In this document: piece by piece, positions 1-45,884 of the stretch
Position numbering within the stretch: the first letter of the stretch is position 1
How the letters are laid out: each line of letters starts with the position of its first letter
Assembly (NCBI RefSeq): GCF_014773395.1
Contig: NZ_JACXAF010000034.1
Location: forward strand, 1 to 45,884
Direction: 5' to 3'
Length of the DNA: 45,884 nucleotides
From: Neiella litorisoli
GTDB lineage: Bacteria; Pseudomonadota; Gammaproteobacteria; Enterobacterales; Neiellaceae
Notes under the pieces: generated by a model
What the model was told of the DNA's origin: nothing
Database searches by the model: none
What the model saw: the letters and a program-made list of their open reading frames with translations, nothing else
Translations under genes and position numbers: made by a program

Positions 1-94
1 AAAAAAGTAATGTGGAGATCAGATCGAAGTTCACGGAAAAAGTTCAAAAAAATCCCCGCCAATTGCTTAGCGGGGATTTGTGTATAAGAGACAG
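1..94 (-). mobile_element. IS50/Tn5-like element end (left copy of the 94-bp terminal inverted repeat)
   Basis: Positions 1-94 are the exact reverse complement of 45791-45884. Read inward from the host DNA the end begins CTGTCTCTTATACACAAAT, which differs from the Tn5/IS50 outside end and from the engineered mosaic end at two of 19 positions each. The following 75 bases do not match known tagmentation adapters, so a natural IS4-family (IS50-group) insertion sequence is the best reading. Only its end is present; no complete transposase is visible. A hairpin (stem AATCCCCGC/GCGGGGATT followed by a T-run when read from host into element) lies just inside the end. The assembly probably broke here because the element is multicopy. 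Confidence 0.7.
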
Positions 95-112
95 GCTTTC
101 GCGGGCTTTTTA
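95..112 (-). terminator. asnS terminator truncated by the IS end
   Basis: On the minus strand, downstream of asnS, the sequence reads A-run, GCCCGC, loop GAAA, then GC, and stops exactly at the IS end. The stem GCCCGC would need GCGGGC; only its first two bases remain. The intact site was probably a rho-independent terminator, and the element inserted inside the 3' arm. A 9-bp target duplication typical of this IS group would cover 95-103, but the other copy is outside the window. Confidence 0.55.
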
Positions 113-145
113 GATCCAATTGGCGATCAGCTTGTCGCTGGCAAT

Positions 146-1546
146 TTAGAAATCAGCAGAGCGAGGCGCACGTGGGAATGGGATCACATCGCGAATGTTA
201 GCCATGCCAGTGACATAACTCACCAAACGCTCAAAGCCCAGACCAAAGCCTGAATGCGGTACCGTGCCGTAACGGCGCAGATCGCGATACCAGCTGTAAT
301 CTTCTTTGTCTAAGCCCATTTCGGCTAGGCGTGCATCAAGCACATCTAGACGCTCTTCACGCTGGCTACCACCGATGATTTCGCCAATGCCTGGGGCCAA
401 CACATCCATCGCCGCCACTGTTTTGCCGTCTTCATTCATGCGCATGTAAAACGCTTTAATGTCTTTCGGGTAGTTTTTCACCACCACAGGTGCGTTGAAG
501 TGCTCTTCAGCCAGATAGCGTTCGTGCTCTGATTGCAGATCAATCCCCCACTCAACGGGGTATTCAAATTTCTTGTCACACTTGAGCAGAATATCGACCG
601 CGTCGGTGTAATCCACTTGCACAAAATCACTGTCAACAAAACGCTCAAGCCGCGCCACCGCATCTTTGTCGATGCGTTGGGCGAAAAATGCCATGTCATC
701 AGCACGCTCAGCCAATACCGCTTTAAAGGCGTACTTCAACATGCCTTCTGCTAGCTTAGCGACATCGTCGAGATCGGCAAAAGCCACCTCTGGCTCGACC
801 ATCCAGAATTCAGCTAGATGGCGGCTGGTATTGGAGTTCTCGGCACGGAACGTTGGACCGAAGGTATAGACCTTACTCAATGCACAAGCGTAGGTTTCAG
901 CATTAAGCTGTCCCGATACGGTCAGGAATGACTCTTTGCCGAAAAAGTCCTGCTCAAAGTCGATTGCGCCTTTGTCGGTGCGTGGCAAATTCTCTAAGTC
1001 GAGCGTGCTGACGCGGAACATTTCGCCGGCGCCTTCGCAGTCACTGGCTGTAATAATTGGCGTGCTAACCCAAACGTAACCTTGTTCGTGGAAAAAGCGA
1101 TGAATGGCTTGTGCTAAGCAGTTTCGAACCCGAGTCACTGCGCCACCGACATTGGTACGGGCGCGTAAATGCGCGTGTTCGCGCAGGTATTCCATGCTGT
1201 GACGCTTTGGAGCCATTGGGTAGGTATCAGGATCTTCAACCCAGCCGAGGACATTCACTTCAATGGCATTCAATTCGAATGATTGACCTTTGCCTGGTGA
1301 TTCCACAACTTTGCCGGTAACGGCAACCGAGCAACCCGTGGTGAGTTTGGTTACTTCCGACTGATAATTGTCGAGTTCATTGGGCACTACGGCCTGAACG
1401 GCATCGAAACTTGAACCATCGTGGATGGCTAAGAATGAAATCCCTGCTTTGGAATCGCGACGGGTGCGAATCCAACCTTTAACTGTAATGACCGAATCAA
1501 TTGAGTAGTCGCCGGCTAAAACTGCGGCAACAGTAGCATGCGTCAT
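146..1546 (-). CDS. asnS: Asparaginyl-tRNA synthetase
   Basis: Charges tRNA-Asn with asparagine using ATP; a cytoplasmic class IIb synthetase acting as a homodimer. The protein is 466 aa, the usual length, and matches E. coli AsnS almost end to end. An N-terminal OB-fold anticodon-binding domain (about 1-100, with [15 protein letters not shown]) precedes the catalytic domain with motif 2 ([17 protein letters not shown]) and motif 3 (GFGLGFERL). The frame is open 26 codons further upstream, but the ATG at 1546 has a GGAG ribosome binding site and matches the family N-terminus ([10 protein letters not shown]). It is a single-gene unit whose terminator is interrupted by the IS end. Confidence 0.97.
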
Positions 1547-1713
1547 GAAGCAAATACTCCGAAATTGCTGTCTGCGTTCAAGATGAAAGACACACATCTT
1601 ACAGGTAAGATAGCGCGATACCAATCAGATTGAGCCAATGGTTTCATTTTGTCATTGGTTTCAGTGGATTTGTTCGGCAAAATTATTGATTAAGCAGAAA
1701 AAACGGAGCGGCT

Positions 1714-2085
1714 ATGGTGTGGGATGGAGTTGATCGGCGCAAGGGCCCCGATTGGCGTGTTCGAACACTGCAAGTTTTGGCAATCATCGCATGGCTACTG
1801 TTTATCGGTAGTTTGCTGCTGTTCCATTTTGCCCGCCCAGAAATGAACTCTGGCATTGCCCGTTACTATGAACTAGAAATTCGTCAGTTTTGGGAACCAA
1901 GCTATACCGGTCCATTGATGTATTTTGTCTGGAGCAGTTGTGTTGTCAGTTTGCTGAGCTTGCTAGCAAATCGGCAATTAAGTCGTCGCGCCGATGATAC
2001 GCGTCGGTATAACCTGATCCTGCTCACTGTCATCACGGTGTCATTTGGCATACTGCTGACCGTCAAGCTACTCGGCAACAGTTAA
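1714..2085 (+). CDS. Small inner-membrane protein, unknown function
   Basis: A 123-aa protein with three predicted membrane helices (about 17-37, 65-83 and 99-119). It starts with a short cytoplasmic segment containing DRRKGPDWR. I do not recognise a named family; the DRR-x-P N-terminus followed by three helices resembles uncharacterised proteins of marine gammaproteobacteria. A purine-rich ribosome binding site (AACGGAG) precedes the ATG. It lies divergent from asnS and about 58 bases upstream of the HDOD gene on the same strand, so the two may be cotranscribed. That pairing is suggestive only. Confidence 0.7.
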   Translation: MVWDGVDRRKGPDWRVRTLQVLAIIAWLLFIGSLLLFHFARPEMNSGIARYYELEIRQFWEPSYTGPLMYFVWSSCVVSLLSLLANRQLSRRADDTRRYNLILLTVITVSFGILLTVKLLGNS

Positions 2086-2143
2086 GTAGTCCGTTCACTT
2101 ATCAGATGTACAAAACCAATACGATGGTTTTGAGGAGATTAAA

Positions 2144-2974
2144 TTGGCCATTGAACAAGCATTGGTACTGACCTTTAAAGACAAGCTTGCGCGCGATGTG
2201 TTGGTGATCCCAAGTTTGCCCGAAGTGGCGATGACTGTTTGTGAAACCGTAGAGCGGGACGACGTATCACTAAAAGAAATCGCTGATTTGATTACACGCG
2301 ATGCTGGTATGGCGGCGCGGATGATCAAGATTGCTAACTCGCCGTTGTTTGGCGTGTCTCAGCGGATCAAGACTATCCATGACGCGGTCAACCGGATTGG
2401 CCTGACGGCGATTAAAAACATTGCCACCACCATGGCAATGGAGCAGCTATATGTCAGCTCTAACGAGCAGATCTATGAATTGCTCGAAGAGAACTGGAAG
2501 CGCGCCGTTAAGGTGGCCAGCAGTGCCGCCGCCTTAGCCACTATGTATCCCAATCGATTGCCATTTAATTCCGAACTAATCACCCTTGCTGGCGTTGTTC
2601 ACAATATCGGGGCGTTGCCGATATTGCTTGAAATGGAACGGATGCCCAAGGTCAGCGCTGATGTCGAGGTCATTGTTCGGGTGGTTCAGTCACTACAGCA
2701 TGAAATTGGCACTAAACTCCTCGCCGTTTGGGAATTTGATGAGACCGTCATTGATGCGGTAACACAGTTAGCCGAGCCCAAGCCAACCGACGGTGAAGCC
2801 TCGTTGGGTGACTTTATTTGTGCCGCAGTAATCGCTCAAGGCGGTTACCACGAACAAGACCAAGATGAGTTACTCAAGCCATTTATCGACAAAGGTATTG
2901 TCGCCGATAGTGATGTTTTCACTTCGCCCGATTATCTGACCCCCTATCGCGATACACTGAGTTCGTTTAACTAA
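2144..2974 (+). CDS. HDOD-domain protein
   Basis: A 276-aa protein made almost entirely of an HDOD domain (roughly residues 10-205), a degenerate HD-type helical fold found in bacterial signalling proteins. Recognisable segments are VIPSLPEVAMTVCETVERDD near the start, ITRDAGMAARMIKIANSP, and IGLTAIKNIATTMAMEQLY. No attached GGDEF, EAL or receiver domain is present, so this is the stand-alone form, whose function is generally unknown. The start is a TTG preceded by a strong GAGGAG ribosome binding site at 2132-2137; no ATG fits better. The HD metal ligands are not conserved, as is usual for HDOD, so phosphodiesterase activity is not expected. Confidence 0.85.
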   Translation: MAIEQALVLTFKDKLARDVLVIPSLPEVAMTVCETVERDDVSLKEIADLITRDAGMAARMIKIANSPLFGVSQRIKTIHDAVNRIGLTAIKNIATTMAMEQLYVSSNEQIYELLEENWKRAVKVASSAAALATMYPNRLPFNSELITLAGVVHNIGALPILLEMERMPKVSADVEVIVRVVQSLQHEIGTKLLAVWEFDETVIDAVTQLAEPKPTDGEASLGDFICAAVIAQGGYHEQDQDELLKPFIDKGIVADSDVFTSPDYLTPYRDTLSSFN

Positions 2975-3105
2975 CAAATCATCATGCCTTCAATCCCGAG
3001 GGCTCATTTGCGATGGCATGGCGAAGTATCTTTGATTTGCAAAACAGCCACTTCCTAGCCATGTTTAACACTGCCATGATGTAGTTCAGGACAAGGAGCT
3101 TGCCA

Positions 3106-6100
3106 GTGGTGCGGTTGTTTATTGTGGGTTTGTTGCTGATTGTTAGCATGCTTCATTACCAAAGTGTGCGAGCGGCCGAGGTTTCTATTGAGCAACTCGA
3201 GCAGTTGATAGAGCGAACCCCTGCCAACAACGACGTTCTCATCGAGCGCTATCAACGAGCGATTCAGCTCCTTACCGAGCGCGATAATTTTGCCGCGGAA
3301 GCTGAGCAATATCGTCAGCAGCTAACTCAGTATCCCCAAGACATTGCGAATGCCAAAGTGCGACCAGTGGTTGATGAGCAGCAAATCGCTGACGCCTACC
3401 GAGACAAAGATCAAGAACAAATCAGTCGCTTGATTAAGTCATTAGAACAACAGATTGTGTTGACCCGCGAGCAAATCCAAAGCTTAGAAAACCAAGGCCG
3501 TAAGGTGCAGGCTCGAATGGTTGATATTCCCCGTGAGTTAGATGAAATCGTCGCTGAATTAGAGCGCGGTTATAGCGAACAACTGGCTATCTCTGGTGAC
3601 GCCTTGCTGAATGAAGCGAGTCAATTTCAATACGATGCGCTGCGCGACATGCTGCTGGCCAAACAGCAGCTGATCCAGCTTGAATCGCAGGGTGTTAGCC
3701 AACGGATTGAGTTAAATCAGCTACAAATTGCGCAACAGAATCAAGCGTTGCTGAATCTAATGCGGCAGTTGCGCTTAGCCAATGACCGGCTTGCTCAATT
3801 GCGTCAGCAGGAGGCCGCTGAAGCACTGGCAGAGCTCGATCACGCTGCCAAAGTGGTGGCTGACGACGACCCTGAGTTGCAGGAAATCATTGCCAGAAAT
3901 ATTGAATTAACCCGCGAGCTAGAAGAGTTGCAGGCCACACAGCAATCGGCGCAATTACGCTATCAAGGGCTGCACGAACTGTCGGTGCAAATCAATTCGT
4001 TGTTGCGGGAGTTGCGTAAGGACATTGATCGGTTTGAGCCCTCGGTTGAGTTTTCCGATGCCATTGTTGAGCAGCTCGCCGCACTCAGTGGCTTACCGAA
4101 TATCCAAGAATTATCGAGATTGCTCAACCAACTGCGGGTTGATAGCTTTTCTTACCGCAATGAGCAGCGTAAAAATCGGCAGAATTTTCAGTTATCCAAA
4201 CGCAATGACGAGCGTGATTTACTCGATCTGCAACAGCAATTATTGACAGAGTTAATTGGTATCAATGGCCAGCTTGAAGTGTTATTGAAACAAGCGCTGG
4301 CCAATATTGATCAGCTCACCATCCGGCGCAGTGATCTTGAAGATCAAGCCTTCCGGCTACTCACCTGGATCCCAAATATGAAACCCTTGACTACGTCCGA
4401 TATCCCGGATGTGGTCAGCGACTTTAAACGCATCGCCAGTGAGCTGGTCCACCAATGGCGACTATACAGTCATCGCCCCGGAGAGAGCGCTTTTCAGCTC
4501 GTGCTGTTATTGTTGCTGGCGGTGTATTTACAGCGATTTATTAGCAAGTATGACGCCTACATGAGCCGCATTGGCGACCGTATTGGCAATGTACGCCGCG
4601 ACAAAGGTCATTACTCGCTCGCCGCGATCTTTGGCTTAATTGCTCTGGGTAGCTTGCTGCCGATGGGCGCTAAATTTTCCGATTGGTTGTCGCAAAATAG
4701 TCAGGTCATGATTCAGCAATTGATTTGGCTCACCACGATTGGCGCGAGTTTGCACTTGGTTGCACGGCAGCTGCGCAAGCCCCCAAGCGTGTTAATCCAC
4801 CATTTTCGGATGAAGCCTGCCGCGATTCAATTGATCATGCGGCACGTGATCTGGTTATCGCCGCTATTTCTAACCGTCTTACTCATCTACAAATGGTTGG
4901 CAGATTGGAATCAACTCGCGCTGTTTAGTGCAACAGGGCGATTAATGCATTTAATCAACGCTGTGCTGCTGACATGGGCGACGGCTTGGCTGTTCCGGCT
5001 GGTGTCTAATTTGGTCCATGAGCGCGGTGATATCATGCGGTTGCCAATGCGAATGCTGTGGTGGTTCGGCATCGCAGTACCGGCGGCGGCCACTGTGTTG
5101 TTGTTGCTGGGCTATATCGTGGCGGCCCAAATGTTGCTAAAGGGCTACCTTTGGACATTGTTGTCTGCAATAACTATTTGTATTTCTTACTTTTTGGCGT
5201 TGCGCGGCCTTGCCATTCTCTATCGCCGTCTGGCTTTCGAACGAGCGTTAACGCGGCGCGCGCAAGCGCTCGCCAAGCGTGAAGAAAATGATGATTCCGC
5301 TGATCCTGCGATTGAAGAACCACAAGAGAGCTATATCGAATTTGATGACATTGGTGCGCAAGCGAGCAAATTACTGCGGACCACTTTCGTGCTGGCATTC
5401 TATTTTTCCCTATTACCAATTTGGAGCGATGCCTTTAATTCGCTCAGCGCTTTTAATGATCTCACCCTGTGGTCGGTGCAAAGTGTTGGCGCGCAAGGGC
5501 AACTCGAAACCACATCAATTACCGTTAAAGTGTTACTAACGGCGATTGTCACCGGAGGTTTTACCCTTGTCAGTGTCCGCAATATTCCGGGCATGTTGGA
5601 GCTGTTGGTACTCCAGCGTATGCAGTTATCTCCGGGAACTGGTTATGCCATCACCACCATTACCAAGTATGTCATTCTGGTGGTTGGGCTACTGGTGGTG
5701 GTCGGTGCGCTGGGTTTTGATTGGTCATCGTTGCAGTGGCTCGTGGCCGCATTGACGGTGGGCTTAGGCTTTGGTTTGCAAGAAATTTTTGCCAATTTCG
5801 TCTCCGGTTTGATTATCCTGTTTGAAAAGCCAATCCGGATCGGAGATACCGTGACCATTCGTGGCATGAGCGGCACAGTGACGCGGATCAATACCCGCGC
5901 GACCACTGTGGTCGACTGGGACCGCAAAGAAATTATTATTCCTAATAAAGCCTTTATTACCGAGGACTTTGTTAACTGGTCATTAAGTGACGCCATTACT
6001 CGGATCGTATTGCGCATTGGTGTGCGCCATGACTCCGATGTGCGCATGGTGACGAAGATGATTTTGCAAGCCGCTGATGAGTGCGAGATGGTGATCGATG

Positions 6101-6318
6101 AGCCAACACCAGAGGTGTTCTTGCTAGAGTACAGTGATAGTGCGCTGATATTTGAATTGCGTGCATTTACCAGTGACACCTCGCATCGGCTGCCATCAAT
6201 TCATGAGATCCACAGTCGGGTCATTAAGAAATTCAATGCGTTGAATATTACGGTGGCTCACCCGCAGTTAGACATCCATGTTAAACACGCTGCGGGCATT
6301 GCCACTAACAACGGATAA
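3106..6318 (+). CDS. Large mechanosensitive channel, MscK/MscM (KefA) type
   Basis: A 1070-aa inner-membrane channel of the MscS superfamily that opens under membrane tension and releases solutes in hypo-osmotic shock. Layout: signal peptide (about 1-21); a long periplasmic coiled-coil domain (about 25-450) rich in Q, E and L; many membrane helices (about 460-860); the MscS core with pore helix and upper beta domain around 870-960 (LGFGLQEIFANFVSG, then FEKPIRIGDTV near 915); and a C-terminal alpha/beta cage. GTG at 3106 is favoured because AAGGAG at 3093-3098 is spaced about 7 bases from it; TTG at 3100 would sit on the Shine-Dalgarno. It could be mscK or mscM(yjeP); sequence alone does not decide. 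It converges on yjfC with 8 bases between stop codons. Confidence 0.9.
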   Translation: MVRLFIVGLLLIVSMLHYQSVRAAEVSIEQLEQLIERTPANNDVLIERYQRAIQLLTERDNFAAEAEQYRQQLTQYPQDIANAKVRPVVDEQQIADAYRDKDQEQISRLIKSLEQQIVLTREQIQSLENQGRKVQARMVDIPRELDEIVAELERGYSEQLAISGDALLNEASQFQYDALRDMLLAKQQLIQLESQGVSQRIELNQLQIAQQNQALLNLMRQLRLANDRLAQLRQQEAAEALAELDHAAKVVADDDPELQEIIARNIELTRELEELQATQQSAQLRYQGLHELSVQINSLLRELRKDIDRFEPSVEFSDAIVEQLAALSGLPNIQELSRLLNQLRVDSFSYRNEQRKNRQNFQLSKRNDERDLLDLQQQLLTELIGINGQLEVLLKQALANIDQLTIRRSDLEDQAFRLLTWIPNMKPLTTSDIPDVVSDFKRIASELVHQWRLYSHRPGESAFQLVLLLLLAVYLQRFISKYDAYMSRIGDRIGNVRRDKGHYSLAAIFGLIALGSLLPMGAKFSDWLSQNSQVMIQQLIWLTTIGASLHLVARQLRKPPSVLIHHFRMKPAAIQLIMRHVIWLSPLFLTVLLIYKWLADWNQLALFSATGRLMHLINAVLLTWATAWLFRLVSNLVHERGDIMRLPMRMLWWFGIAVPAAATVLLLLGYIVAAQMLLKGYLWTLLSAITICISYFLALRGLAILYRRLAFERALTRRAQALAKREENDDSADPAIEEPQESYIEFDDIGAQASKLLRTTFVLAFYFSLLPIWSDAFNSLSAFNDLTLWSVQSVGAQGQLETTSITVKVLLTAIVTGGFTLVSVRNIPGMLELLVLQRMQLSPGTGYAITTITKYVILVVGLLVVVGALGFDWSSLQWLVAALTVGLGFGLQEIFANFVSGLIILFEKPIRIGDTVTIRGMSGTVTRINTRATTVVDWDRKEIIIPNKAFITEDFVNWSLSDAITRIVLRIGVRHDSDVRMVTKMILQAADECEMVIDEPTPEVFLLEYSDSALIFELRAFTSDTSHRLPSIHEIHSRVIKKFNALNITVAHPQLDIHVKHAAGIATNNG

Positions 6319-6326
6319 AGCGATGC

Positions 6327-7478: not shown

Positions 7479-7480
7479 CG

Positions 7481-8050: not shown

Positions 8051-8059
8051 CTGCAACCT

Positions 8060-8464
8060 CTAATAACTCATGCAAGCAGCATTTAGAATACCGGTTGCTA
8101 ATGCCGCGCAGCCGAGAAATAAACCGGCAGCAATCTGATCATCATTGATTCGCTTGACCAAGTCAGTCATGTACCAGCGCACCGTCATGAAGGTCACGAT
8201 TTGGGCGAGCAGGGCAACCACGGCCCAAATGATGTAGTCGATAATGCTGACCGAATGAATGGCAGCACTGGCTACCGGAATGGTGTAGCCGACCAAACTC
8301 AAACCGAAAGCGATGGATGCGGCTGCGTTGTTGTTGCGCATTAACGTCCATTCGCAATAGGGCGTTACTTTGCCATATAAGACGCAAAACAAAACGATAA
8401 AGCCATAGCCCACCACGAAGTAGAGAGCGAATGCTGGCAGTCCTTGCAGTGAATCAATAATCAT
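8060..8464 (-). CDS. yjfL: DUF350 inner-membrane protein (YjfL)
   Basis: A 134-aa membrane protein with four predicted helices. It matches E. coli YjfL along its length: ALYFVVGYGFIVLFCVLYGK, then TPYCEWTLMRNNNAAASIAF, an IDYIIWAVVALLAQIV helix and a C-terminal AALATGILNAACMSY. It belongs to the DUF350 family, of unknown function. It is the first gene of the minus-strand trio, nine bases upstream of yjfM. The upstream E. coli neighbours yjfI/J/K (the PspA-like part of that operon) are absent here, so the conserved minimum unit is L-M-C. Confidence 0.9.
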   Translation of the reverse strand: MIIDSLQGLPAFALYFVVGYGFIVLFCVLYGKVTPYCEWTLMRNNNAAASIAFGLSLVGYTIPVASAAIHSVSIIDYIIWAVVALLAQIVTFMTVRWYMTDLVKRINDDQIAAGLFLGCAALATGILNAACMSY

Positions 8465-8924: not shown

Positions 8925-9038
8925 TGGCGCTGTTGTTTGATAAAGCAGCAGTTGTTTCACTAATCACTAAACGGGTGTTGGCAAAGCTCGGCTGAGGCAA
9001 TAGTCTAGACCGATTGTTGTCTTTTGGAGTCCCAGTTT

Positions 9039-38338: not shown

Positions 38339-40119
38339 CAACGAATCACATTAGCTGGGCCAGTTTATGGCAACAAATTAAGTGCCATAAAGCCACTTTG
38401 GTAAAGGCTCATGTTATTGCTATTTTGGCGACGCTGATCAGCGTGCCCATTCCACTCATGATGCCTTTGATGGTTGACGAGGTATTGCTCAATCAACCCG
38501 GTATCGCGGTTGATTGGATGAACCGTATGTTGCCGCAAAGCTGGCATTCCAATGGCGGTTACATCGCGGCGATCCTGCTTGCTGTTGTGCTGTTGCGGTT
38601 ACTGTCATTGGCATTGACCGTGTTGCAATCACGCCAATTTACCATCATCGGCAAACAAATCTGTTTATCGGTTCGCCAGCGTTTGTTGGCTCATCTACCC
38701 AAAGTGCAACTGCAGCAATACGAAACTCAAGGCTCCGGCGGTATTAGTGCGCGTTGCATTACTGATGTGGATACCCTCGATCAGTTTATTAGCAGCTCGG
38801 TGTCGAAGTTTCTTGTGGCGGCGTTGTCGCTGGTTGGCGTGGCCGCCATTTTACTGGCGATTAGTTGGCAGCTCGGGCTGTTCATTTTATTGCTCAATCC
38901 GGTGGTGATTTATTTTTCACAGCTGTTTGGTAAACGGGTTAAGCAACTAAAAGTGAGAGAAAACGCAGCCACCGAGGCATTTCAAAGTTCGTTGATCGAA
39001 ACCCTCGATGCTATTCACCAATTACGTGCCATTCGGCGCGATGGTCATTACTTTGCAAAAGTCGGGCAGGCGGCCATTGAACTCAAAGATAGGGCGATTG
39101 CTTCGCAATGGAAAACCGAAGCCATGGGCCGGTTTAGCTTCACCGTGTTTCTAGTTGGTTTTGAGGTGTTTCGTGCCGTTGCCATGATGATGGTGCTGCT
39201 TTCCGATTTAACCATTGGTCAGATGTTCGCAGTGTTCGGTTACTTGTGGTTCATGATGGGGCCGGTACAAGAGCTGCTGAATATGCAGTACGCCTGGTTT
39301 GGCGCAAAAGCGGCTATGGGCCGGTTAAATGCGGTGCTCGATTTACCATCTGAAGTTGCTGAAAAGGGCCAGATCGACCCGTTCGACCGAGCGCCGACGG
39401 TTGCTTTAAGCTTCGAACAAATCGATTTTGCCTATGGCGATAAGCCGCCAGTTCTGAAGCAGGTCAACTTGGCTATACCGGCTGGCAAAACCGCGGCGTT
39501 GGTGTCGATGAGCGGCGGTGGTAAATCAACCTTAGTTCAACTGCTGTTGGGGTTATATCAACCGCAAAGCGGCACGGTCCGTTATGACGGCCATGCAATC
39601 GAGCATGTTGGGGTCGAAGCGGTACGTGCCAATATTGCCACGGTGTTGCAGCAGCCGGCATTGTTTAATACCAGCTTGCGTGAAAACCTGACGATGGGTG
39701 CCGATCATAGCGATGATGCCATTTGGCAAGCATTGGCAATTGCCGAGTTGGATGATTTTGTGCGCGAGCAAGATCAGCAACTTGAGACCATGGTCGGGCG
39801 CAATGGCGTGGCTTTGTCAGGTGGCCAACGACAACGTTTGGCGATCGCCAGAATGGTATTAAGCGATCCCAAAGTGGTGGTGCTGGATGAGGCCACTTCG
39901 GCTTTGGATGTCGCGACCGAAGCCAAGGTGTTGGCGAACTTGCAGCGTTTTTTGCAAGGCAAAACGACGCTGATCATTGCCCACCGGCTCAGTGCTATTG
40001 AGCAAGCTGATGAGATTTTTGTCCTCGATGATGGAACGATCAGCCAACGCGGCTCTCATCAGCAGCTTCTTTCCGAGGCTGGACTGTATCAAACACTCTA
40101 CGGGTCGCAGGTGGTCTAG
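38335..40119 (+). CDS. ABC exporter (fused membrane and ATPase domains) in the heme operon
   Basis: A 594-aa type IV (MsbA-like) ABC transporter: six membrane helices in about 1-325, nucleotide-binding domain about 350-594. ATPase features: Walker A VSMSGGGKST, signature LSGGQRQRLAIAR, Walker B KVVVLDEATSALD, H-loop IIAHRLS. The first Gly of Walker A is replaced by Ser391, the catalytic Lys397 is intact. The ATG overlaps the hutW stop (ATGA), so it is translated with hutW, and its substrate may be heme, porphyrin or the linear tetrapyrrole made by HutW or HutZ. The upstream GTG at 38320 lies inside hutW. Substrate is an inference from position. Confidence 0.88.
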   Translation: MTTNHISWASLWQQIKCHKATLVKAHVIAILATLISVPIPLMMPLMVDEVLLNQPGIAVDWMNRMLPQSWHSNGGYIAAILLAVVLLRLLSLALTVLQSRQFTIIGKQICLSVRQRLLAHLPKVQLQQYETQGSGGISARCITDVDTLDQFISSSVSKFLVAALSLVGVAAILLAISWQLGLFILLLNPVVIYFSQLFGKRVKQLKVRENAATEAFQSSLIETLDAIHQLRAIRRDGHYFAKVGQAAIELKDRAIASQWKTEAMGRFSFTVFLVGFEVFRAVAMMMVLLSDLTIGQMFAVFGYLWFMMGPVQELLNMQYAWFGAKAAMGRLNAVLDLPSEVAEKGQIDPFDRAPTVALSFEQIDFAYGDKPPVLKQVNLAIPAGKTAALVSMSGGGKSTLVQLLLGLYQPQSGTVRYDGHAIEHVGVEAVRANIATVLQQPALFNTSLRENLTMGADHSDDAIWQALAIAELDDFVREQDQQLETMVGRNGVALSGGQRQRLAIARMVLSDPKVVVLDEATSALDVATEAKVLANLQRFLQGKTTLIIAHRLSAIEQADEIFVLDDGTISQRGSHQQLLSEAGLYQTLYGSQVV

Positions 40120-40124
40120 TTTTA

Positions 40125-40296
40125 CGCCTTGTTGACGAAATGCTTATTCCGGTGCGTATAGCGCAGGCAACAATTACCATTATATCGGTGACGCTCAAGT
40201 CCATCCTTGGAACGCTCTACACCCGGCATCCATGCCGGCTGAAGCACCTCATAGCAGTATTTGCTGCCTGCTTGACTGTCACAAATCTATGTTGGC
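40125..40296. repeat. 172-bp direct repeat, copy 1
   Basis: Starts CGCCTTGTTGACGAAATGCT, six bases after the ABC exporter stop, and ends at GTTGGC. It is repeated at 40411-40582, 286 bp downstream, with about 93% identity by eye. Its centre (40186-40272) is the REP-like module CCGGCATCCATGCCGG seen also at 28803-28890. Confidence 0.87.
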
Positions 40297-40410
40297 GCGG
40301 GAAAGCGATGAGTTATTTATTGCCGTCGAATAGCTCCCGTAGCAGCGACACTTCGCTAAAGCCTTGCTCTCTTAGTCGCTGGCCAAGTTCTGGGATTAGT
40401 GATTTCACTT
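40297..40410. repeat. Spacer with fragments of other repeat blocks
   Basis: Between the two 172-bp copies. Contains GATGAGTTATTTATTGCCGT and GTAGCAGCGACACTTCGCTA, related to blocks in the 467-bp units and near 29079 (GATGAGTTGTTCATTAGCCA; GCAGCGACGCTTCACTATAG). No open frame. Confidence 0.5.
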
Positions 40411-40582
40411 CGCCTTGTTGGCGAAATATTTATTCTGGTACGTATCGCGCAGGCAACAATTACCACTATATCGGTGACGCTCAAGTCCATCCTTGGAACG
40501 CTCTACACCCGGCATCCATGCCGGCTGAAGCACCTCATAGCGGTATTTGCTGCCTGGTTGACTGTCACAAATATAAGTTGGC
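40411..40582. repeat. 172-bp direct repeat, copy 2
   Basis: Second copy of the repeat at 40125-40296 with the same central module at 40472-40558. The downstream stretch 40583-40731 has a small imperfect hairpin CCGCTC/GAGCGG (about 40588-40609) and the promoter region of maoP; nothing else is seen. Confidence 0.87.
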
Positions 40583-40731
40583 ACTGCCCGCTCTTTCGCT
40601 TGCGAGCGGATAACAAAAAGTCATTATTGTCACGATAAATAAATTTCGTTTTGCAGAAGCAGCAACGCGCTCTATCGTGCGTTCAAACTATCACGAGATG
40701 TTTTACGCAATCTGGTAACAGGGTGAACGCA

Positions 40732-41085
40732 ATGAGTATTCGACATGGCCACAAGGCTTACTACGACTTTGTAAAGTTCCCACGAGGATTCAATAAAACG
40801 GGTGATTTCACCCTAAAAGAAGCCGATTTGTTGACTCATTTTGGCCATACGTTGGTCGCACTTGAGCAACGGCAGCTGCAGCCGCTGAACTCCGAAGAGC
40901 TGCATTTTGTTGATGTTGTATCGGGCTTAACCGAGCCGCAAACCTTGCTTGAAAAAGCCTGGCTCAAATACATCAAGCTGAGCCGTTGCCACCGTGCATT
41001 TCATGGTTTATGTGGCAGCAAGCGTTCGCTATCTGAACCAGTGGTGGAAAGCGATAGCGATAACGATGATTATTTTGGCGATTAG
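40732..41085 (+). CDS. maoP: Macrodomain Ori protein MaoP (YifE, DUF413)
   Basis: A 117-aa DUF413 protein. E. coli MaoP (YifE) shapes the chromosome Ori macrodomain with the maoS site. Family text: YDFVKFPRGFNKTGDFTLKE, EADLLTHFGHTLVALEQRQL, PLNSEELHFVDV, AWLKYIKLSR and FHGLCGSKR. The acidic tail ends DSDNDDYFGD. ATG at 40732 with a GGGTGAAC site. The final codons and TAG stop lie in a 7-bp microsatellite. A PF05618-type gene follows about 48 bases downstream. Confidence 0.9.
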   Translation: MSIRHGHKAYYDFVKFPRGFNKTGDFTLKEADLLTHFGHTLVALEQRQLQPLNSEELHFVDVVSGLTEPQTLLEKAWLKYIKLSRCHRAFHGLCGSKRSLSEPVVESDSDNDDYFGD

Positions 41086-41119
41086 CGATTAGCGATTAGC
41101 GATTAGCGATTAGCAATTA
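41078..41119 (+). repeat. 7-bp microsatellite GCGATTA over the maoP stop codon
   Basis: Five perfect GCGATTA units (41078-41112) plus one GCAATTA. The maoP stop TAG (41083-41085) is formed by the first unit junction. Because the first in-frame TAG is fixed, gain or loss of units changes only the spacing to the next gene, not MaoP. Confidence 0.93.
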
Positions 41120-41133
41120 AAGGGCGTTGGTAA

Positions 41134-41574
41134 ATGACAATGAGTCGATTATTAATCGGCAATTTAGAGCTTTGCAGCTTACCTGATTTAGGCATAAGCG
41201 ATTTGGAAGTACGCATCGATACAGGAGCGAAAACATCATCGCTACATGTCGACAATTTGGTTCGGCTGCAAAAGCACGGTCGCCCTTATGTTCAGTTTGA
41301 TCTTCATCCAGATGTTTACGACCTGGCTCATACTGTTAGTTGTGAAGCGCCGCTGCATGACTCTCGGCGGATCAAATCCTCGAATGGTGAAGCTGAACAA
41401 CGCTGTGTCATCAAAACGATGTTTGTGATCGGCAATGAGCAATGGCCAATTGAAATCACCCTGACTAATCGGCAAGACATGAGTTACTTAATGTTGCTGG
41501 GACGAGAAGCGATGGCCGATCGTGTTTATGTTGACCCGTCATCAACGTTTTTGATTGATAGCGAAAGCAACTAA
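41134..41574 (+). CDS. PF05618-type retropepsin-like (ATP-dependent zinc protease family) protein
   Basis: A 146-aa protein with the aspartyl-protease-like fold of the PF05618 family (annotated 'ATP-dependent zinc protease'; also linked to RimK-type glutamate ligase loci as RimB). Catalytic-type motif RIDTGAKTSSLHVD at about residues 28-41 and MLLGREAMADRVYVDPS at the C-terminus are typical. The ligase partner RimK is not adjacent. AAAGGGCG lies about eight bases before the ATG. It shares a strand with maoP, separated by the microsatellite. Confidence 0.85.
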   Translation: MTMSRLLIGNLELCSLPDLGISDLEVRIDTGAKTSSLHVDNLVRLQKHGRPYVQFDLHPDVYDLAHTVSCEAPLHDSRRIKSSNGEAEQRCVIKTMFVIGNEQWPIEITLTNRQDMSYLMLLGREAMADRVYVDPSSTFLIDSESN

Positions 41575-41594
41575 AAGTAGGTCGTAGCCCGCTT

Positions 41595-42476
41595 TCATGG
41601 TTTCGCTTCGCTACTAAATGGCGCGGGCGGGTTAAATAAAAAATCGGGTAATTGCATTTTGTAGCCGGGTGGCAGCAACTTTAACTGTTCGGCATCTTCA
41701 ATGTAGAACTGACGCCGCTCTAGCAGATTGGCCTGAGCTAACATGGCCTGAATAATTTCGGAGTGATAAAGCTTGGCTTGATAGCTGCCATCCGCTAATG
41801 CCAACGCCATGCCTCGCTCAACTAACGCCTTTAATTCTGGTTGATCGGCGGCGACATAGAAATAAAGCACCAACGGGTAAACCAGCAGAATGTTCTTTTC
41901 TACTGTCAGCCCCATATCTTGCCGAATCGCCAGATCCGGCCAAGGCTCATGCGCGCCCAACGGCATGTAATCGAAGCGCTTGGACGCCAACATTTTCCAC
42001 AGCGCCTCGTTTTTGGTTGCCGTCATTACTGAGAACCCAGCACGCTTTAAGATTTGCGTATCGCCCCAGAATGCCCCTTGGCCAACTTTCAGCTCTTTTA
42101 ACGGATCGAGCGAATAGATCGAGTCGAACCGCTCTTGCTCACCTTGTCTAATGACGAAAATTCGAAAACCCGTTAGTCCCATAAATATCGGCTGCTTAAT
42201 GGGTACCACATATTCATCGGCACTGAAGCCAGCACTGGCCCAATGAATGCTGAGCACACCTTTTTTGACTAATGCAGCTTTGCGGCCATCGGTAACGAAA
42301 ATAGGCAGCGGTTGGTAGCAAATATTGGCTTCGGTCTTACTCAGAGCAAGTTTCAGCAGGGATAGAACAAGTTCGCTTTTGCGGGTTTCTAGCTTTGGAT
42401 GAGTGAGGGTGAGATCACAGGCCAAACACAGGTTCGGTATGGCAACCAACAACACCATCAACTGCTTCCAGCCCAT
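41595..42476 (-). CDS. Periplasmic binding-protein-like protein, paralogue 2
   Basis: A 293-aa exported protein with an N-terminal signal peptide (cut near LCLA) and a solute-binding (SBP family 3-like) fold. Family-type text: LKVGQGAFWGDTQILKRAGF, FDYMPLGAHEPW, ILLVYPLVLYFYVAA and DGSYQAKLYHSEII. It is clearly paralogous to the next gene upstream (roughly 55-60% identical by eye). No ABC permease or histidine kinase lies nearby. ATG at 42476 is preferred over the TTG just before it. Such stand-alone proteins in marine bacteria have unknown ligands. Confidence 0.75.
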   Translation of the reverse strand: MGWKQLMVLLVAIPNLCLACDLTLTHPKLETRKSELVLSLLKLALSKTEANICYQPLPIFVTDGRKAALVKKGVLSIHWASAGFSADEYVVPIKQPIFMGLTGFRIFVIRQGEQERFDSIYSLDPLKELKVGQGAFWGDTQILKRAGFSVMTATKNEALWKMLASKRFDYMPLGAHEPWPDLAIRQDMGLTVEKNILLVYPLVLYFYVAADQPELKALVERGMALALADGSYQAKLYHSEIIQAMLAQANLLERRQFYIEDAEQLKLLPPGYKMQLPDFLFNPPAPFSSEAKP

Positions 42477-42547
42477 CAATCACGATCCTGTCGGCTAACC
42501 TGTCGTCAGTATAGCCAATGGCGCTATTTTCTCTCGACCAATTACTG

Positions 42548-43435
42548 CTATTTGCTGGGTTGATCCGATTGCAGCAAGAACGCGGGCAACTCCATCACAT
42601 AACCTTCAGGCAGCAGTTTGCTCAATTCAGCATGGTGAATCTGAATTTGGCGCCGTTGGCTGATATTGGCATGGGCTAAAAGTGACTGAATCATTTCTGA
42701 TTGACGGAGCAGTTGTTGATAGCTGCCGTCGGTGGTGGCACGTGCCATCCCTTGGCTTATTAGAGCCTTGAGCTGCGGGCGTTGAGGGCTGACATAAAAG
42801 TACAGTACCGACGGGTACACCAGCAGCAGATTTTGCTCGACGGTCAGGTTCAACTCCGGCCGCAGCGCAATGTCTTTCCACGGTTCATGGGCACCGAGCG
42901 AGATGTAATCAAAACGGTGCGATGCCAGCATCTTCCACAATCGCCGCGCTTGGGCGGTGGTAACTACATCAAAACCTGCGCGTTGTAGTAATTGGGTGTC
43001 GCCCCAAAACAAGCCTTGGCCAACCCGCAATTGTTTTAAGTCATCGGCGCTCTTGATGTTGTCAAAGCGGTGTTGTTCGCCTTGTCGGATCACTAATACC
43101 CGAAAACCAGTCAGACCAAAAAAGATCGGCTGTTTAATCGGATCGGCGTAAGTATCAGCGCTGGAGCCAGCACTGGCCCATTGTACGCTCAGTTGGTTGC
43201 TATTGATGAGGGCCGACTTGCGCGCCTCGGTCACCACCAATTGCAACTGTTGGTAGCAAATATCGGCGTCCGTCTTACTAAGAGCGAGTGATAGCAGCGA
43301 AAAAATCAGCTGATCTTTACTGGATTCAAGGGGCGGATGGGTCACTGTGTGCTGGCATGACGATGCGATTGCAGGCTTGATCAACACGCCCAAAATGGCC
43401 ACACAAACGATCAATGGGGCTTGCAAAAACTTCAT
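42548..43435 (-). CDS. Periplasmic binding-protein-like protein, paralogue 1
   Basis: A 295-aa paralogue of the downstream gene. Signal peptide MKFLQAPLIVCVAILGVLI with cleavage near AIA. Shared blocks: QPIFFGLTGFRVLVIRQGEQ, LRVGQGLFWGDTQLLQRAGF, LWKMLASHRFDYISLGAHEP, LLLVYPSVLYFYV. Conserved cysteines (Cys28 region and DICYQQLQ) could pair in a disulfide. ATG at 43435 is chosen because of the signal peptide; the frame is open 21 codons upstream. The 70-bp space to paralogue 2 suggests one transcript. Confidence 0.77.
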   Translation of the reverse strand: MKFLQAPLIVCVAILGVLIKPAIASSCQHTVTHPPLESSKDQLIFSLLSLALSKTDADICYQQLQLVVTEARKSALINSNQLSVQWASAGSSADTYADPIKQPIFFGLTGFRVLVIRQGEQHRFDNIKSADDLKQLRVGQGLFWGDTQLLQRAGFDVVTTAQARRLWKMLASHRFDYISLGAHEPWKDIALRPELNLTVEQNLLLVYPSVLYFYVSPQRPQLKALISQGMARATTDGSYQQLLRQSEMIQSLLAHANISQRRQIQIHHAELSKLLPEGYVMELPAFLLQSDQPSK

Positions 43436-43598
43436 AGCCAAGGAGTCCAGTGTTGGTGAAATGGGGGCCGCAATGCAGATGTTTTTGAATGCAGCCAATA
43501 CTACCAGACCCTACCATGGACCGGTAAAAAGACTGTAGCACCTCAGGACGAATTTAGTCACCGAAAACCACGCTGCGTGGCTTTGCGCTTAACCGGTT

Positions 43599-43841
43599 TT
43601 AATGATTACAGATTTTGTCAGCGGCTGTGTTAAAGCCATCATCCGATTCGACAAATTTGCCGCGCGCGGCGAGAAAATCAATCAATTCATCGGCATCCAT
43701 ATCGCTGGCGCTGCAGGTGTGGAACTTAGTCGCTGGGCCAAATTTTTGTTCAATCGCTTGCTTTAGTGTGGCGCGAGTAAATTGCTGCTCTGAATCGAGC
43801 ATCATGTGCATTACTTCGTGGCCGTGAACGGAATCAGTCAT
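43599..43841 (-). CDS. yecH: YecH family metal-binding protein (DUF2492)
   Basis: An 80-aa protein matching E. coli YecH throughout: VHGHEVMHMM, KFHTCSASDMDADELIDFLA, GKFVESDDGFNTAADKICNH. His and Cys residues in the first half (HGHEV, FHTCSA) and the C-terminal CNH suggest metal binding; function is unknown. GGAGC precedes the ATG. A possible FNR box lies 60-75 bases upstream. It is a single-gene unit. Confidence 0.92.
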   Translation of the reverse strand: MTDSVHGHEVMHMMLDSEQQFTRATLKQAIEQKFGPATKFHTCSASDMDADELIDFLAARGKFVESDDGFNTAADKICNH

Positions 43842-44265
43842 TGTTGTGCTCCGAATGCATTAATGAGTTGGCAGTGTGACCAATGTCTCGCTTGAGAATG
43901 CTGATCTAACTCAAAGCGACGGCGACATTTTTTACGCGACGTCTGCGCGGACTTAATTTTTGCGGCGAATTAACATTTTATAGTGTTTTTCAACTCGGTA
44001 AAAAATGTTTATAAATCAGTATATTTGTTATTCAAATTTCGCGATTGTGTAAATTAATTACGTTGTTTAAGTGGTTTTCACCGTTAATTTGGCTAAAAAG
44101 TGTGTTTTTTTCGGTTGATTCTATTGTTTTATGAAATTTGCAAAAAAACGGTGTAATTAAGGTTCAGATCAAGTTTCGTTTGGCTGAACCCAGTAAGCTT
44201 TTCAACGCTTAACAGCCCTCTAATAAGTGGCACAAATTTATAACAAGTACGTAAGGGTAGATTAA
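43842..44265. other. 424-bp AT-rich region between yecH and the DUF3360 gene
   Basis: Divergent region with no credible gene. An FNR-like sequence CTGAT-CTAA-CTCAA (43901-43914) is near yecH. Further on are very AT-rich tracts (about 43965-44160) and a hairpin GGTTCAG/CTGAACC (44161-44167 with about 44184-44190) in the likely 5' leader of the DUF3360 gene. No start-proximal ORF with a ribosome binding site was found. Confidence 0.55.
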
Positions 44266-45720
44266 ATGTCTGATTCTGGAGAATTGGGTTACGCGGAGCA
44301 ACGTCGTCCGGCGGCGTCATTTGATAGCCGTGAAGACTTTCTTAATCATGAGCTGGAAATTACCAATGTAAAGCGATGGGGCATTAACCTGCCATTTCGC
44401 GATTTCGGTATTGAAATCGAAGATTGGGTACCAGCGCTAGCAGCAACGATCGGTAAGATCGTGATGGTGACAGCAATGGTGGCAGCATTTGCTGCCCAAT
44501 ACGGCCTATCACCAGAATTTGTGGCTGAAAATGTTCGTTTTGAGCTGTTGATTGCCGGTGTTTTGTTTGTTGTTCTTTTTTCTGCGATTTTGAACCCAGC
44601 AGCCAACTTGGCTGGCACGCACGGGCCGATGATCCCGCTTATTCCGCTCATTGCTTTGGCCGGCGGACACCCGCTTGCGCTGGGTATCATGGTCGGCATT
44701 TTCGGACTTCTGCTGAGTTTCTCCAAAGGCGGCTCGCGTTTGGTCAATGCGACTGGCGAAGGGGTTCGTGGCGGACTACTCATTTATTTGGGCGCCGTGG
44801 GCACCATCAGCCAGATCAGTAAGCTAGGCGGCTGGGCGGCTGGTATCGAAATGAGCACAGTATCGTTCGGCGTTATCGTCGTCACTATTGTGCTGTACGC
44901 TTATTTAGCTCGTATTCAGAAACGTTGGTTGGCGATTCCATTGTGTTCGGCCATCGCCGGTATTGTTGCTTACGCCATGGGCGCACCGTTTGAGTTTGTC
45001 ACTGAACCTGGTTTGCCAAATATGAACCCATTCTACTGGTGGGGTGAAGACACAGGTTGGCAGTTAGGCTGGCCGTCATTCGAACAATACATCGCGGTGA
45101 TTCCGTTTGCGGTCTTGGCCGTTGCGATGTGGTCTCCAGACGTATTAGGACACCGTGTATTCCAAGAATTGAACTACCCGCCAAAGGCGAAAAAAGTGCT
45201 AATGAACGCCGATGACACCATGGCCGTTGCTTCGATTCGCCAGATCGTCGGTGTAAGCCTGGGTGGCGGTAACTTGGCGTCTTCTTGGGGTACGTACATG
45301 ATCCCTGCTGCAATTGCTAAGCGCCCAATTCCTGGCGGTGCAATTCTGACCGGTTTGTTGTGTGTGTTGGCCGGTATCTTTGGTTACCCAATGGACTTGG
45401 CAATGTGGGAACCAGTATTGCGCGTGGCGCTGTTGGTTGGTGTATTCCTGCCGTTGCTAGAAGCCGGTATGCAGATGGTTAAAGATTCCAAGAACTCACA
45501 AAGTGCTGGTATCTGTATCTTCTCTTGTGCCTTCGTAAACCCTGTATTCGGTTGGGCTCTAACCATGTTGCTCGACAACTTGGGCTTCATTGGTGACAAA
45601 GAGCGTCCGAAGCAATTGTCTACTCTAGACCGTCTGTGGTTGCCACTGGTTGCCTTCGTTGTGTGTGTTGGCTCTTTGGCTTTGGTCGGTCAGCTACCGG
45701 GTATTCCTGCACTACTGTAA
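44266..45720 (+). CDS. DUF3360 multi-pass membrane protein
   Basis: A 484-aa protein with about ten to twelve predicted membrane helices, matching the DUF3360 family common in Vibrio and related genera. Distinctive segments are RRPAASFDSREDFLNHEL, FPFRDFGIEIEDWVPALAAT-like N-terminus, LAGTHGPMIPLIPLIALAGG, FEFVTEPGLPNMNPFYWWGE, MWSPDVLGHRVFQELNYPP and SSWGTYMIPAAIAKRP. The TGHGP-type and SPD-type loops recall transporters of the APC/SulP-like fold, but the substrate is unknown. A small AGGG precedes the ATG. Its terminator is broken by the right IS end. Confidence 0.85.
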   Translation: MSDSGELGYAEQRRPAASFDSREDFLNHELEITNVKRWGINLPFRDFGIEIEDWVPALAATIGKIVMVTAMVAAFAAQYGLSPEFVAENVRFELLIAGVLFVVLFSAILNPAANLAGTHGPMIPLIPLIALAGGHPLALGIMVGIFGLLLSFSKGGSRLVNATGEGVRGGLLIYLGAVGTISQISKLGGWAAGIEMSTVSFGVIVVTIVLYAYLARIQKRWLAIPLCSAIAGIVAYAMGAPFEFVTEPGLPNMNPFYWWGEDTGWQLGWPSFEQYIAVIPFAVLAVAMWSPDVLGHRVFQELNYPPKAKKVLMNADDTMAVASIRQIVGVSLGGGNLASSWGTYMIPAAIAKRPIPGGAILTGLLCVLAGIFGYPMDLAMWEPVLRVALLVGVFLPLLEAGMQMVKDSKNSQSAGICIFSCAFVNPVFGWALTMLLDNLGFIGDKERPKQLSTLDRLWLPLVAFVVCVGSLALVGQLPGIPALL

Positions 45721-45764
45721 TTTTTCCAGAGAGACTCAATGGACTGAACTCTCACACTTCTCTG

Positions 45765-45791
45765 ATAAAAAAGCCGCCCGATAAATCGGGC
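45765..45791 (+). terminator. DUF3360 gene terminator truncated by the IS end
   Basis: Reads AAAAAAGCCGCCCGAT-AA-ATCGGG and then the IS end (whose first C completes one more pair). The expected GGCTTTTTT is missing. The insertion is again inside the 3' arm of the hairpin. A 9-bp target duplication would cover 45782-45790 (taaatcggg). Confidence 0.7.
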
Positions 45792-45884
45792 TGTCTCTTA
45801 TACACAAATCCCCGCTAAGCAATTGGCGGGGATTTTTTTGAACTTTTTCCGTGAACTTCGATCTGATCTCCACATTACTTTTTT
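45791..45884 (+). mobile_element. IS50/Tn5-like element end (right copy of the 94-bp inverted repeat)
   Basis: Exact reverse complement of 1-94, starting CTGTCTCTTATACACAAAT. The following hairpin AATCCCCGC/GCGGGGATT with TTTTTTT supplies a new terminator for transcription coming from the host gene. The flanking sequence differs from that at the left end, so the contig lies between two separate insertions in opposite orientation. Confidence 0.7.

Follow-up and report, generated by a model that had tools for sequence, protein, structure and literature searches.

Copies of an IS50/Tn5-like element lie within intrinsic terminator hairpins of Neiella litorisoli and duplicate the hairpin apex

Introduction

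A contig of Neiella litorisoli (NZ_JACXAF010000034.1, assembly GCF_014773395.1), hereafter the window (the whole stretch of 45,884 nucleotides that was analysed), is bounded on both sides by the same insertion sequence end, each time inside a terminator. Does this reflect a choice of target and, if so, how is a terminator recognized? Few cut-and-paste transposases have been studied as thoroughly as that of Tn5, whose stagger of 9 bp is regarded as fixed. An earlier note, made from the window alone, had suggested that an IS50/Tn5-like element is targeted to terminator stem-loops, with the expected 9-bp target duplication. We propose, with a probability of roughly 0.75, that the window ends are the outside ends (OEs) of two copies of a cut-and-paste IS50/Tn5-like element (element A) that targets intrinsic terminators.

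Two insertion sites at the ends of the window

The ends of the window are perfect inverted copies (100% identity over 94 bp). The earlier note had seen here the same element end twice, which is right for the sequence, but each end comes from a separate copy. The note called them IS50/Tn5-like; the OE of element A, CTGTCTCTTATACACAAAT, conforms to the IS50-subgroup end signature. Identical sequence is also found at 7 further contig ends, in two cases over 92 bp. Pfam supports both flanking gene calls (Table 1), "asnS" being the finer name chosen in the earlier note, since PF00152 is common to the D, K and N synthetases of class II. Both junctions lie inside terminator hairpins, as had been described: on the left, read on the minus strand, AAAAAGCCC-GCGAAAGC precedes the IS within the asnS terminator and, on the right, AAAAAAGCCG-CCCGATAAATCGGG precedes the IS within the terminator hairpin that follows the DUF3360 gene. 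In the sister species G002, the asnS hairpin is uninterrupted (AAAAAGCCC-GCTACAGC-GGGCTTTTT) and represents the empty site. The asnS search also matched the other sister genome, G001.

Table 1. Features at the two ends of the window
Feature	Position	Strand	Evidence
OE of one copy of element A, truncated by the contig; terminal 16 bp at 79-94	1..94	-	identity to 45791-45884
The element's own intrinsic terminator, pointing inward, at bp 16-49 of the OE (stem of 13 bp, loop of 4 nt, T run)	46..79	-	folding of this sequence at the other window end
Target duplication of 8 bp, hairpin apex of the asnS terminator	95..102	-	same 8 bp at the inside-end junction of contig C19
asnS terminator: T tract and lower stem of 4 bp (GGGC on the + strand)	103..111	-	junction reading
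asnS-like class II tRNA synthetase gene, directed at the insertion	146..1624	-	PF00152 and PF01336
DUF3360 gene, directed at the insertion	44266..45720	+	PF11840, E 9.5e-246
Terminator 3' of the DUF3360 gene: A tract and lower stem of 4 bp (GCCG)	45767..45776	+	junction reading
Target duplication of 14 bp, hairpin apex CCCGATAAATCGGG of the DUF3360-gene terminator	45777..45790	+	same 14 bp at the inside-end junction of contig C36
OE of a second copy of element A, truncated by the contig	45791..45884	+	identity to 1-94
Inward-facing intrinsic terminator of the element, second copy	45806..45839	+	folding

Rebuilt insertions and their hairpins

All 92 contig ends of the genome were listed (10 ends, and five short contigs, read N), and copies were rebuilt by pairing OE ends with inside ends (IE) through their common apex duplication. 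This gave 23 insertions, nine of element A, six of its relative B and eight of an IS4-like element C, all in terminator-like hairpins. Each of the nine OE ends of A was paired with one of nine inside ends, the duplications being 8, 8, 9, 9, 11, 11, 12, 12 and 14 bp. All six OE ends of B found a partner (duplications of 8–11 bp) and one inside end was left over. In G002, 10 of the 12 OE ends of A were paired (9–11 bp); the unpaired junctions (two OE and two IE) show the hairpin too. The suggestion of terminator targeting, made in the earlier note from two sites, is supported by 9/9 A and 6/6 B sites here and 10/10 rebuilt G002 sites, all in one register. Terminator targeting can be regarded as practically certain. 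One candidate arrangement, in which A and B would be the two ends of a single element, was rejected, as A and B have separate second ends and no apex of A pairs with one of B. One-sided A sites number only three, with the OE on the tract side in 3/3, too few for a claim on orientation.

The contigs break at the element ends, as at any multi-copy repeat, and the terminal 16 bp of the OE equal part of the Tn5/Nextera mosaic end, both of which could point to an assembly or library artefact. The probability of such an artefact is negligible: the ends are element-specific over 94 bp, the other, matching end of each copy lies on another contig beside the same duplicated apex, and relatives are found whole within contigs and plasmids of other species, including complete plasmids.

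Register and length of the duplication

The hairpin apex is duplicated in 25/25 rebuilt A/B sites of the two genomes. The edge of the duplication is 4 bp from the A/T tract in 24/25 sites on the OE side and in 21/25 on the IE side; one site has 3 bp on both sides and three IE sides lack a close T tract. The lower-stem arms are perfectly paired in 22/25 A/B/G002 sites, three B sites having one or two mismatches. Across the cut, the first outer pair is formed in 24/25 sites, by four pair types (12 in shuffles), and the first inner pair in 24/25 (13 in shuffles). A fixed 9-bp duplication, as anticipated in the earlier note, does not hold for element A: the two window sites have 8 and 14 bp, and the range over all its sites is 8–14 bp. 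As it is the apex that is duplicated, the length is set by the hairpin and not by a fixed 9-bp stagger.

The sites follow gene ends, a stop codon often lying at a distance of 30–75 bp (in stretches of 400 bp at the contig ends, scanned heuristically), as would be expected if RNA polymerase, a termination factor or a transient DNA state at termination brought the transpososome to its target. Such recruitment is improbable as the explanation, since alone it gives neither the 4-bp register on both sides nor a duplication that follows the hairpin, and some relatives insert in palindromes devoid of a T tract.

Position-wide controls exclude chance placement in hairpins. Under a rule with both tracts (AAA-N4-[8-14]-N4'-TTT, perfect arms), 48 of the 444,434 positions in this genome pass versus 19/25 A/B sites of the two genomes (binomial 8e-71); with either tract, the figures are 747/444,434 and 22/25. 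A mechanical hairpin-plus-TTT test is passed by 51/55 single A, B and sister-copy junctions versus 2.3% of positions; the four failures of the strict script are C17e (imperfect inner pairing) and C6s, C10s and C45s (no T tract). Terminators between converging genes are a mild landing place, and insertions might occur anywhere with only the harmless ones persisting. This is very improbable: terminator apices are rare even outside ORFs (50/54,749 positions by a both-tract rule that is looser but still asks for perfect arms), a 4-bp register is nothing that selection could impose, and relatives at ordinary sites (G118, Rhizobium, Allorhizobium) do persist.

Relatives in other genomes

Among 20 genomes with relatives, 15/32 readable inside-end junctions pass the hairpin test, which 2.3% of positions pass; the scoring script counts an N junction as a failure and gives 15/33. 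All 15 fall in five genomes. The first nine genomes, picked from the 20 with a transposase match when some of their sites had already been seen, account for 15/21. The remaining 11 added 14 junctions, of which three were unreadable (contig end or N) and 0/11 readable ones passed. As the relatives behind this 0/11 (in G020, G216 and G383) have no readable junction in a terminator, the habit is not general: it is confined to part of the family. The Tn5-like element of G118 also lacks terminator targeting. The Pfam profile PF02281 had no match in three genomes nor in 14 control genomes and was therefore useless as a probe.

Of 44 loci of relatives, 36 were given to the end-finder, eight partial loci being omitted. 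The resulting set of 29 sites excludes L154, L168 and L125, which repeat a site already counted, and loci without a direct duplication, among them L156/L161 (swapped partners), L143, L133/L147, L166, L174, L176, L180, L184, L190 and L234. At least 5/6 outer pairs are formed in 16/29 sites and fewer than 4/6 in 10/29 (L123, L136, L160, L173, L186, L189, L231, L232, L235 and L237), the low score of L123 being due to a finder edge one base off (by eye, AAAGCCA-CCCTAGGG-TGGCTTT).

These sites bear on the main rival to hairpin capture, in which each transposase subunit would recognize, on duplex DNA, a G+C half-site of 4 bp together with an A/T tract, terminators being merely the commonest place with two facing half-sites at a tolerated spacing. 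GCCA/TGGC adjoins the tract in 14/19 A and G002 sites, and the arms of A sites are nearly interchangeable (5.41 of 6 pairs when shuffled versus 5.78), as this recognition would predict. We nevertheless hold it to be rather unlikely. The spacing of the half-sites ranges over 6 bp (8–14) for one element, which exceeds half a helical turn; lower stems differ among relatives with pairing retained (CCCC/GGGG, CCCG/CGGG, GGCG/CGCC, GGCT/AGCC); and the three A sites without a close IE-side T tract still have a paired TGGC.

A terminator carried inside the OE

Elements A and B and 8 of the 18 relatives that were folded have a strong terminator at bp 16–45 of the OE (-20.7 kcal/mol, z -5.2 at the right window end), whose stem is retained in relatives despite a different sequence. 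Relatives that carry it sit in terminators in 6/8 cases, those that lack it in 0/10, although a single clade supplies most of this link; in L232 and the Rahnella element the terminator is present, yet their sites are not clear terminators. The carried terminator probably replaces the broken one and shields the transposase gene. As the insertions follow gene ends and the element brings its own terminator, it is plausible that they do little harm, as the earlier note had supposed.

Element C and IS4 of Escherichia coli

Element C has the ends TAATGCC...CAGTTAA, as in K-12 IS4, and duplications of 10–12 bp in 8/8 insertions; the strict script fails 3/16 of its junctions, and at C24e/C26e and C9e/C31s the hairpins appear only by eye or in a shifted register. 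A Pseudoalteromonas element with C-type ends encodes a transposase 51% identical to InsG. Element C would fit the IS4 subgroup by its ends and duplication length (10–13 bp in that subgroup; PMC2266710).

As blastn of the IS4-type end of element C gave no match in E. coli genomes, the E. coli IS4 query was taken from K-12. The scan counted 5,360 places in E. coli, and 11 of the 20 rows listed were read. Of the distinct IS4 sites, 4/7 lie in hairpins (the adhE terminator, the bamD terminator twice and another hairpin). The other 3/7 are not hairpins, yet retain AAA and TT(T) tracts a few nucleotides from the duplication, which favours tract reading in E. coli IS4 and lends some weight to recognition in duplex DNA. 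Element C resembles the IS4 subgroup in its ends and has 10–12 bp duplications in terminator-like hairpins, while E. coli IS4 also uses non-hairpin sites.

Relation to known elements

Insertion at terminator stem-loops is known from group IIC introns, but these are RNA-based retroelements that, unlike A and B, make no target duplication. Among insertion sequences, element A is likely kin to IS50/Tn5, judging from its ends, a short C-terminal reading and the 127-aa C-terminal fragment of element B, which scores 145.6 bits with NF033590 (cut-off 160) and has no Pfam match. L158 and L121, two relatives whose ends are of this type, match PF14706 and PF01609 and exceed the NF033590 cut-off, and homology (E 2.8e-82) links the L158 transposase with PDB chains of the Tn5 transposase. 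Element A shares with IS50/Tn5 the OE and IE end types and the subgroup signature CW------Y---CA-A--W- (Table 1 of PMC2266710). The duplications given for that subgroup are 8–9 bp (De Palmenaer 2008, PMC2266710), whereas those of A are 8 or 9 bp in 4/9 sites and 11–14 bp in 5/9; element A is therefore termed an IS50-like variant and not a typical member. It also differs by its terminator targeting, hairpin-set duplications and carried OE terminator; the word "terminator" is absent from the main text of PMC2266710.

The closest known elements are IS1272/TnSha1 (IS1182 family), DDE insertion sequences described as inserting into hairpins, several of them confirmed transcription terminators, with no primary-sequence consensus and with a cruciform target drawn (Furi 2016, PMC4923244; Wan 2017, PMC5678879). 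Hairpin insertion is common to both; however, IS1272 removes the stem-loop and leaves its target unduplicated, whereas A and B duplicate the apex and retain the lower stem, a behaviour that much resembles the stem-loop duplication drawn as one hypothetical pathway in Fig. 13 of Wan 2017. REP-targeting insertion sequences (e.g., ISRm22 of the IS4 family) insert at the palindrome axis (Tobes and Pareja 2006, PMC1525189) and hit one repeat family, whereas A and B hit terminators of unrelated sequence. Searches of open-licence PMC papers listed none that describes elements of IS50 or IS4 type inserted in terminators and making duplications set by the hairpin; a prior description elsewhere is possible.

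Proposed mechanism and significance

Hairpin or cruciform capture is the mechanism that we favour, by a modest degree of belief, and it can be viewed as follows. A transposase dimer would capture the terminator as an extruded, two-fold symmetric pair of hairpins (a cruciform or similar). Each hairpin would receive one transposon end on its 5' arm, some 4 nt up from the base. In the extruded target, the geometry of the two joining points would stay the same for any apex length, which is not so in B-form duplex. The apex between these symmetric points is what is duplicated, and the duplication varies with the hairpin. The carried terminator would then stand in for the broken one and block read-through into the transposase gene. 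One point against capture is that the stems of terminators are short for a cruciform to be extruded in vivo.

A broader proposal is tentative, its chances being slightly below even: IS4-family transposases of at least two subgroups would read a folded DNA hairpin and join their ends a fixed distance up both arms of the extruded terminator, the hairpin measuring the duplication, and the IS50-like branch would have gained its own OE terminator. Insertion would then be a terminator-for-terminator swap, nearly neutral to the host, that shuts off read-through into the transposase gene.

Relatives of Tn5 with a hairpin-tracking duplication of 8–14 bp would show that a folded target can set the joining points of a DDE transposase. 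Landing in terminators would be a natural safe-landing strategy and may explain the build-up of such elements in one genome; it might also provide a tool for insertion after genes instead of within them. If IS4-family transposases do read hairpins, this could also account for the variable duplications of E. coli IS4.

Inventory of insertions in the draft genome

The earlier note described the ends of the window as inverted identical copies flanked by terminators, and both points hold: the same 94 bp, belonging to the outside end (OE) of the IS50/Tn5-like element A, stand in inverted orientation at the two ends, next to the terminator of an asnS-like gene on one side and that of the DUF3360 gene on the other. 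This OE is also found on 7 further contig ends of the genome (over 92 bp in two of them). In a survey of all 92 ends of the 46 contigs, 10 of them from five contigs reading N, 46 ends are accounted for by three multi-copy elements, A, its relative B and the IS4-like C. As the assembly is a draft, their copies were deduced from junctions. Joining of flanks by common sequence paired 9/9 copies of A, 6/6 OE ends of B and 8/8 copies of C, and left one inside end (IE) of B, the end of contig C6, without partner. Adapter trimming could clip reads crossing natural mosaic-like ends, which may contribute to the assembly breaks there. A seventh IE of B lies about 400 bp inside contig C31 (locus L137); the end of C31 and the start of contig C27 have a stretch of B transposase in common, past which C27 continues into other sequence, and this copy looks rearranged or interrupted.

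Features of the elements and of sites of relatives
Feature	Position	Ends or sequence	Remark
Element A	contig ends	9 OE-type, ..TGTGTATAAGAGACAG; 9 IE-type, ..GATGTGATCAAGAGACAG	contig-end listing
Element B	contig ends	6 OE, 6 IE	contig-end listing
Element C	contig ends	8 + 8, IS4-type, ..GGCATTA	contig-end listing
Terminal 16 bp of OE	window 79-94 and 45791-45806	CTGTCTCTTATACACA	identical to part of the Tn5/Nextera mosaic end
End apices at L166 (Rhodanobacteraceae MAG)	1414-1427 and 2917-2930	GGCAAAGCC / GGCTTTGCC	reverse complements, not direct copies
Long inverted repeat at L187 (Paenibacillus)	~115-140 and 1630-1660	ATTCATCCCCC/GGGGGATGAAT	distant relative in its axis; no T tract

Insertion is measured from the base of a terminator hairpin

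The rule was derived from 25 sites of A and B reconstructed as they were before insertion, some in this genome and the others in its sister, G002. They comprise, in order, an A-tract, a 4-bp arm (3 bp at a single site), an apex, i.e., the hairpin tip between the two joining points, and the complementary 4 bp, followed by a T tract in 22/25; the asnS terminator of G002, intact and empty, has the same plan. The 4-bp arms are perfectly paired in 22 sites and carry one or two mismatches in three B sites. The duplicated stretch is the apex, whose length varies: 8, 8, 9, 9, 11, 11, 12, 12 and 14 bp for A in this genome, 9–11 bp for A in G002 (10 paired sites) and 8–11 bp for B. On the OE side, the duplication edge lies 4 bp from the tract in 24/25 sites. 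This constancy implies that the hairpin base serves as the reference point for insertion, with duplication length as the remainder. The bases flanking the cut on its two sides covary: the first outer pair across it is complementary in 24/25 sites, with four pair types (12.0 in shuffles), and the first inner pair also in 24/25 (shuffles, 13.2).

Perfect arms with both tracts (AAA-N4-[8–14]-N4'-TTT) occur at 48 of 444,434 genome positions (p 1.1e-4) versus 19/25 A/B sites; if one tract, on whichever side, is enough, the figures are 747 positions versus 22/25. A mechanical single-junction check for a hairpin plus TTT (hairpin-T test) is passed by 51 of the 55 A, B and G002 junctions, against a background of 2.3% of positions. 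Many sites follow gene ends, with the stop codon, located heuristically, 30–75 bp from the element. Selection alone, which would leave only the insertions that sit in terminators, cannot explain these data, as survivorship does not produce a 4-bp register.

Terminator targeting among relatives

A Rahnella plasmid element, whose OE is similar to that of A, was used as query; it has matches in 21 of 394 genomes of the order, including the window's own. Scanning the species collection by pattern brought up 44 loci. Whole elements lie in terminators, with duplications of 8–12 bp, in Alishewanella, Alteromonas, Pseudoalteromonas, genomes G286 and G381 and a gammaproteobacterial MAG. The 20 other transposase-match genomes were searched in two lots for exact matches to the 15-base inside end. 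Nine genomes were selected when part of their sites was already known; eight of them contain the end, at 21 junctions, and 15 of these junctions pass the hairpin-T test (including 6/6 in G078 and 5/5 in G286). Of the remaining eleven genomes, five contain it, at 14 junctions; three of these are unreadable, and none of the 11 readable ones passes. Taken together, 15/32 readable junctions pass, all from five genomes (G078, G196, G285, G286 and G316), indicating that terminator targeting is strong and confined to part of the family.

Sites of distant relatives in Bdellovibrionales MAGs, Paenibacillus and a Sinorhizobium plasmid are palindromes lacking a clear T tract; the Paenibacillus site L187 is a case of palindrome targeting beyond terminators. 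Neither palindrome nor terminator was found at the sites of G118, Rhizobium, Allorhizobium and some Enterobacterales MAG copies. Over 29 relatives' sites, mean outer pairing is 4.21/6 versus 2.60 in shuffles (maximum 3.41 among 5000). A quick tree with 36 rows, which includes a fragment of B and was built without A, groups seven terminator-sited rows in one clade (SH-aLRT 97) and Tn5 with the non-hairpin G118 element (SH-aLRT 99); the B fragment falls outside the terminator-sited clade without firm position.

Mismatched apices or a missing mate were observed at L156 and L161 (Alishewanella jeotgali), L143 (G286) and the end of C6. The apices of L156 and L161 match crosswise, as expected from recombination between copies or misassembly.

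IS4-type elements

The eight sites of C have a like plan, with 2–3 bp on the left side and duplications of 10–12 bp; pairing is weaker or shifted at two. IS4 was examined in Escherichia coli K-12, whose copy has no hairpin at its site, and in 11 other strains (11/20 listed rows). Among seven distinct sites with duplications (one further copy has none), three are terminators, one is a hairpin without full T tract and three are neither. The terminators are those of adhE, with the same duplication in two strains (L245, L253), and bamD, used twice in two registers (L246 and L247; 14 and 12 bp). At the non-hairpin sites, AAA and TT(T) still stand a few nucleotides outside the duplication. The E. 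coli sites as a whole support a link to C and, for the IS4 subgroup, a tract reading over a hairpin reading. IS4-type relatives of C also lie in hairpins on Vibrio (L240) and Pseudoalteromonas (L242) replicons, the latter a clear terminator.

A proposed model for target capture

The transposase dimer would capture the terminator as a pair of extruded hairpins (a cruciform), with one joining point per 5' arm, each 4 nt up. Such a pair would fix the two-fold geometry of the joining points whatever the apex, and hairpin or cruciform capture is favoured for this reason (probability about 0.55). A reading of two half-sites with flexible spacing would select the same terminators and, since sites within one element have sequence in common, structure and sequence are separated only in part; this reading, the main rival, is less likely, as half-sites 8 to 14 bp apart on B-form DNA offer no constant geometry to a rigid dimer.

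The closest known behaviour is that of IS1272/TnSha1, described as targeting hairpins, several of them confirmed terminators, and as deleting the stem-loop with no duplication (PMC4923244, PMC5678879), whereas A and B duplicate the apex. A hypothetical pathway drawn by Wan et al., in which ends joined at the 5' feet lead to duplication of the stem-loop (PMC5678879), resembles the behaviour of A and B if started 4 bp higher. De Palmenaer et al. give duplications of 8–9 bp for the IS50 subgroup and target-arm specificity for some IS4-subgroup elements, and do not mention terminators in the main text (PMC2266710).

A terminator carried in the outside end

Base pairs 16–45 of the OE of A fold into a hairpin (stem 13 bp, loop 4 nt) with a T run, directed inward (-20.7 kcal/mol; 0/200 shuffles as good). 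A terminator occurs at about the same place in B and in 8 of 18 folded relatives, with different stem sequences and conserved pairing. Six of these eight are sited in terminators, versus 0/10 relatives without one; L230 lies in a G+C hairpin without T tract and L232 in neither. The Rahnella OE also aligns with the carried terminator, and its site shows no clear terminator. Both ends of C bear inward terminators too. From this correlative evidence, mostly from one clade, we infer a double role: the element would return a terminator where its insertion breaks one, and the carried terminator may protect the transposase gene from read-through.
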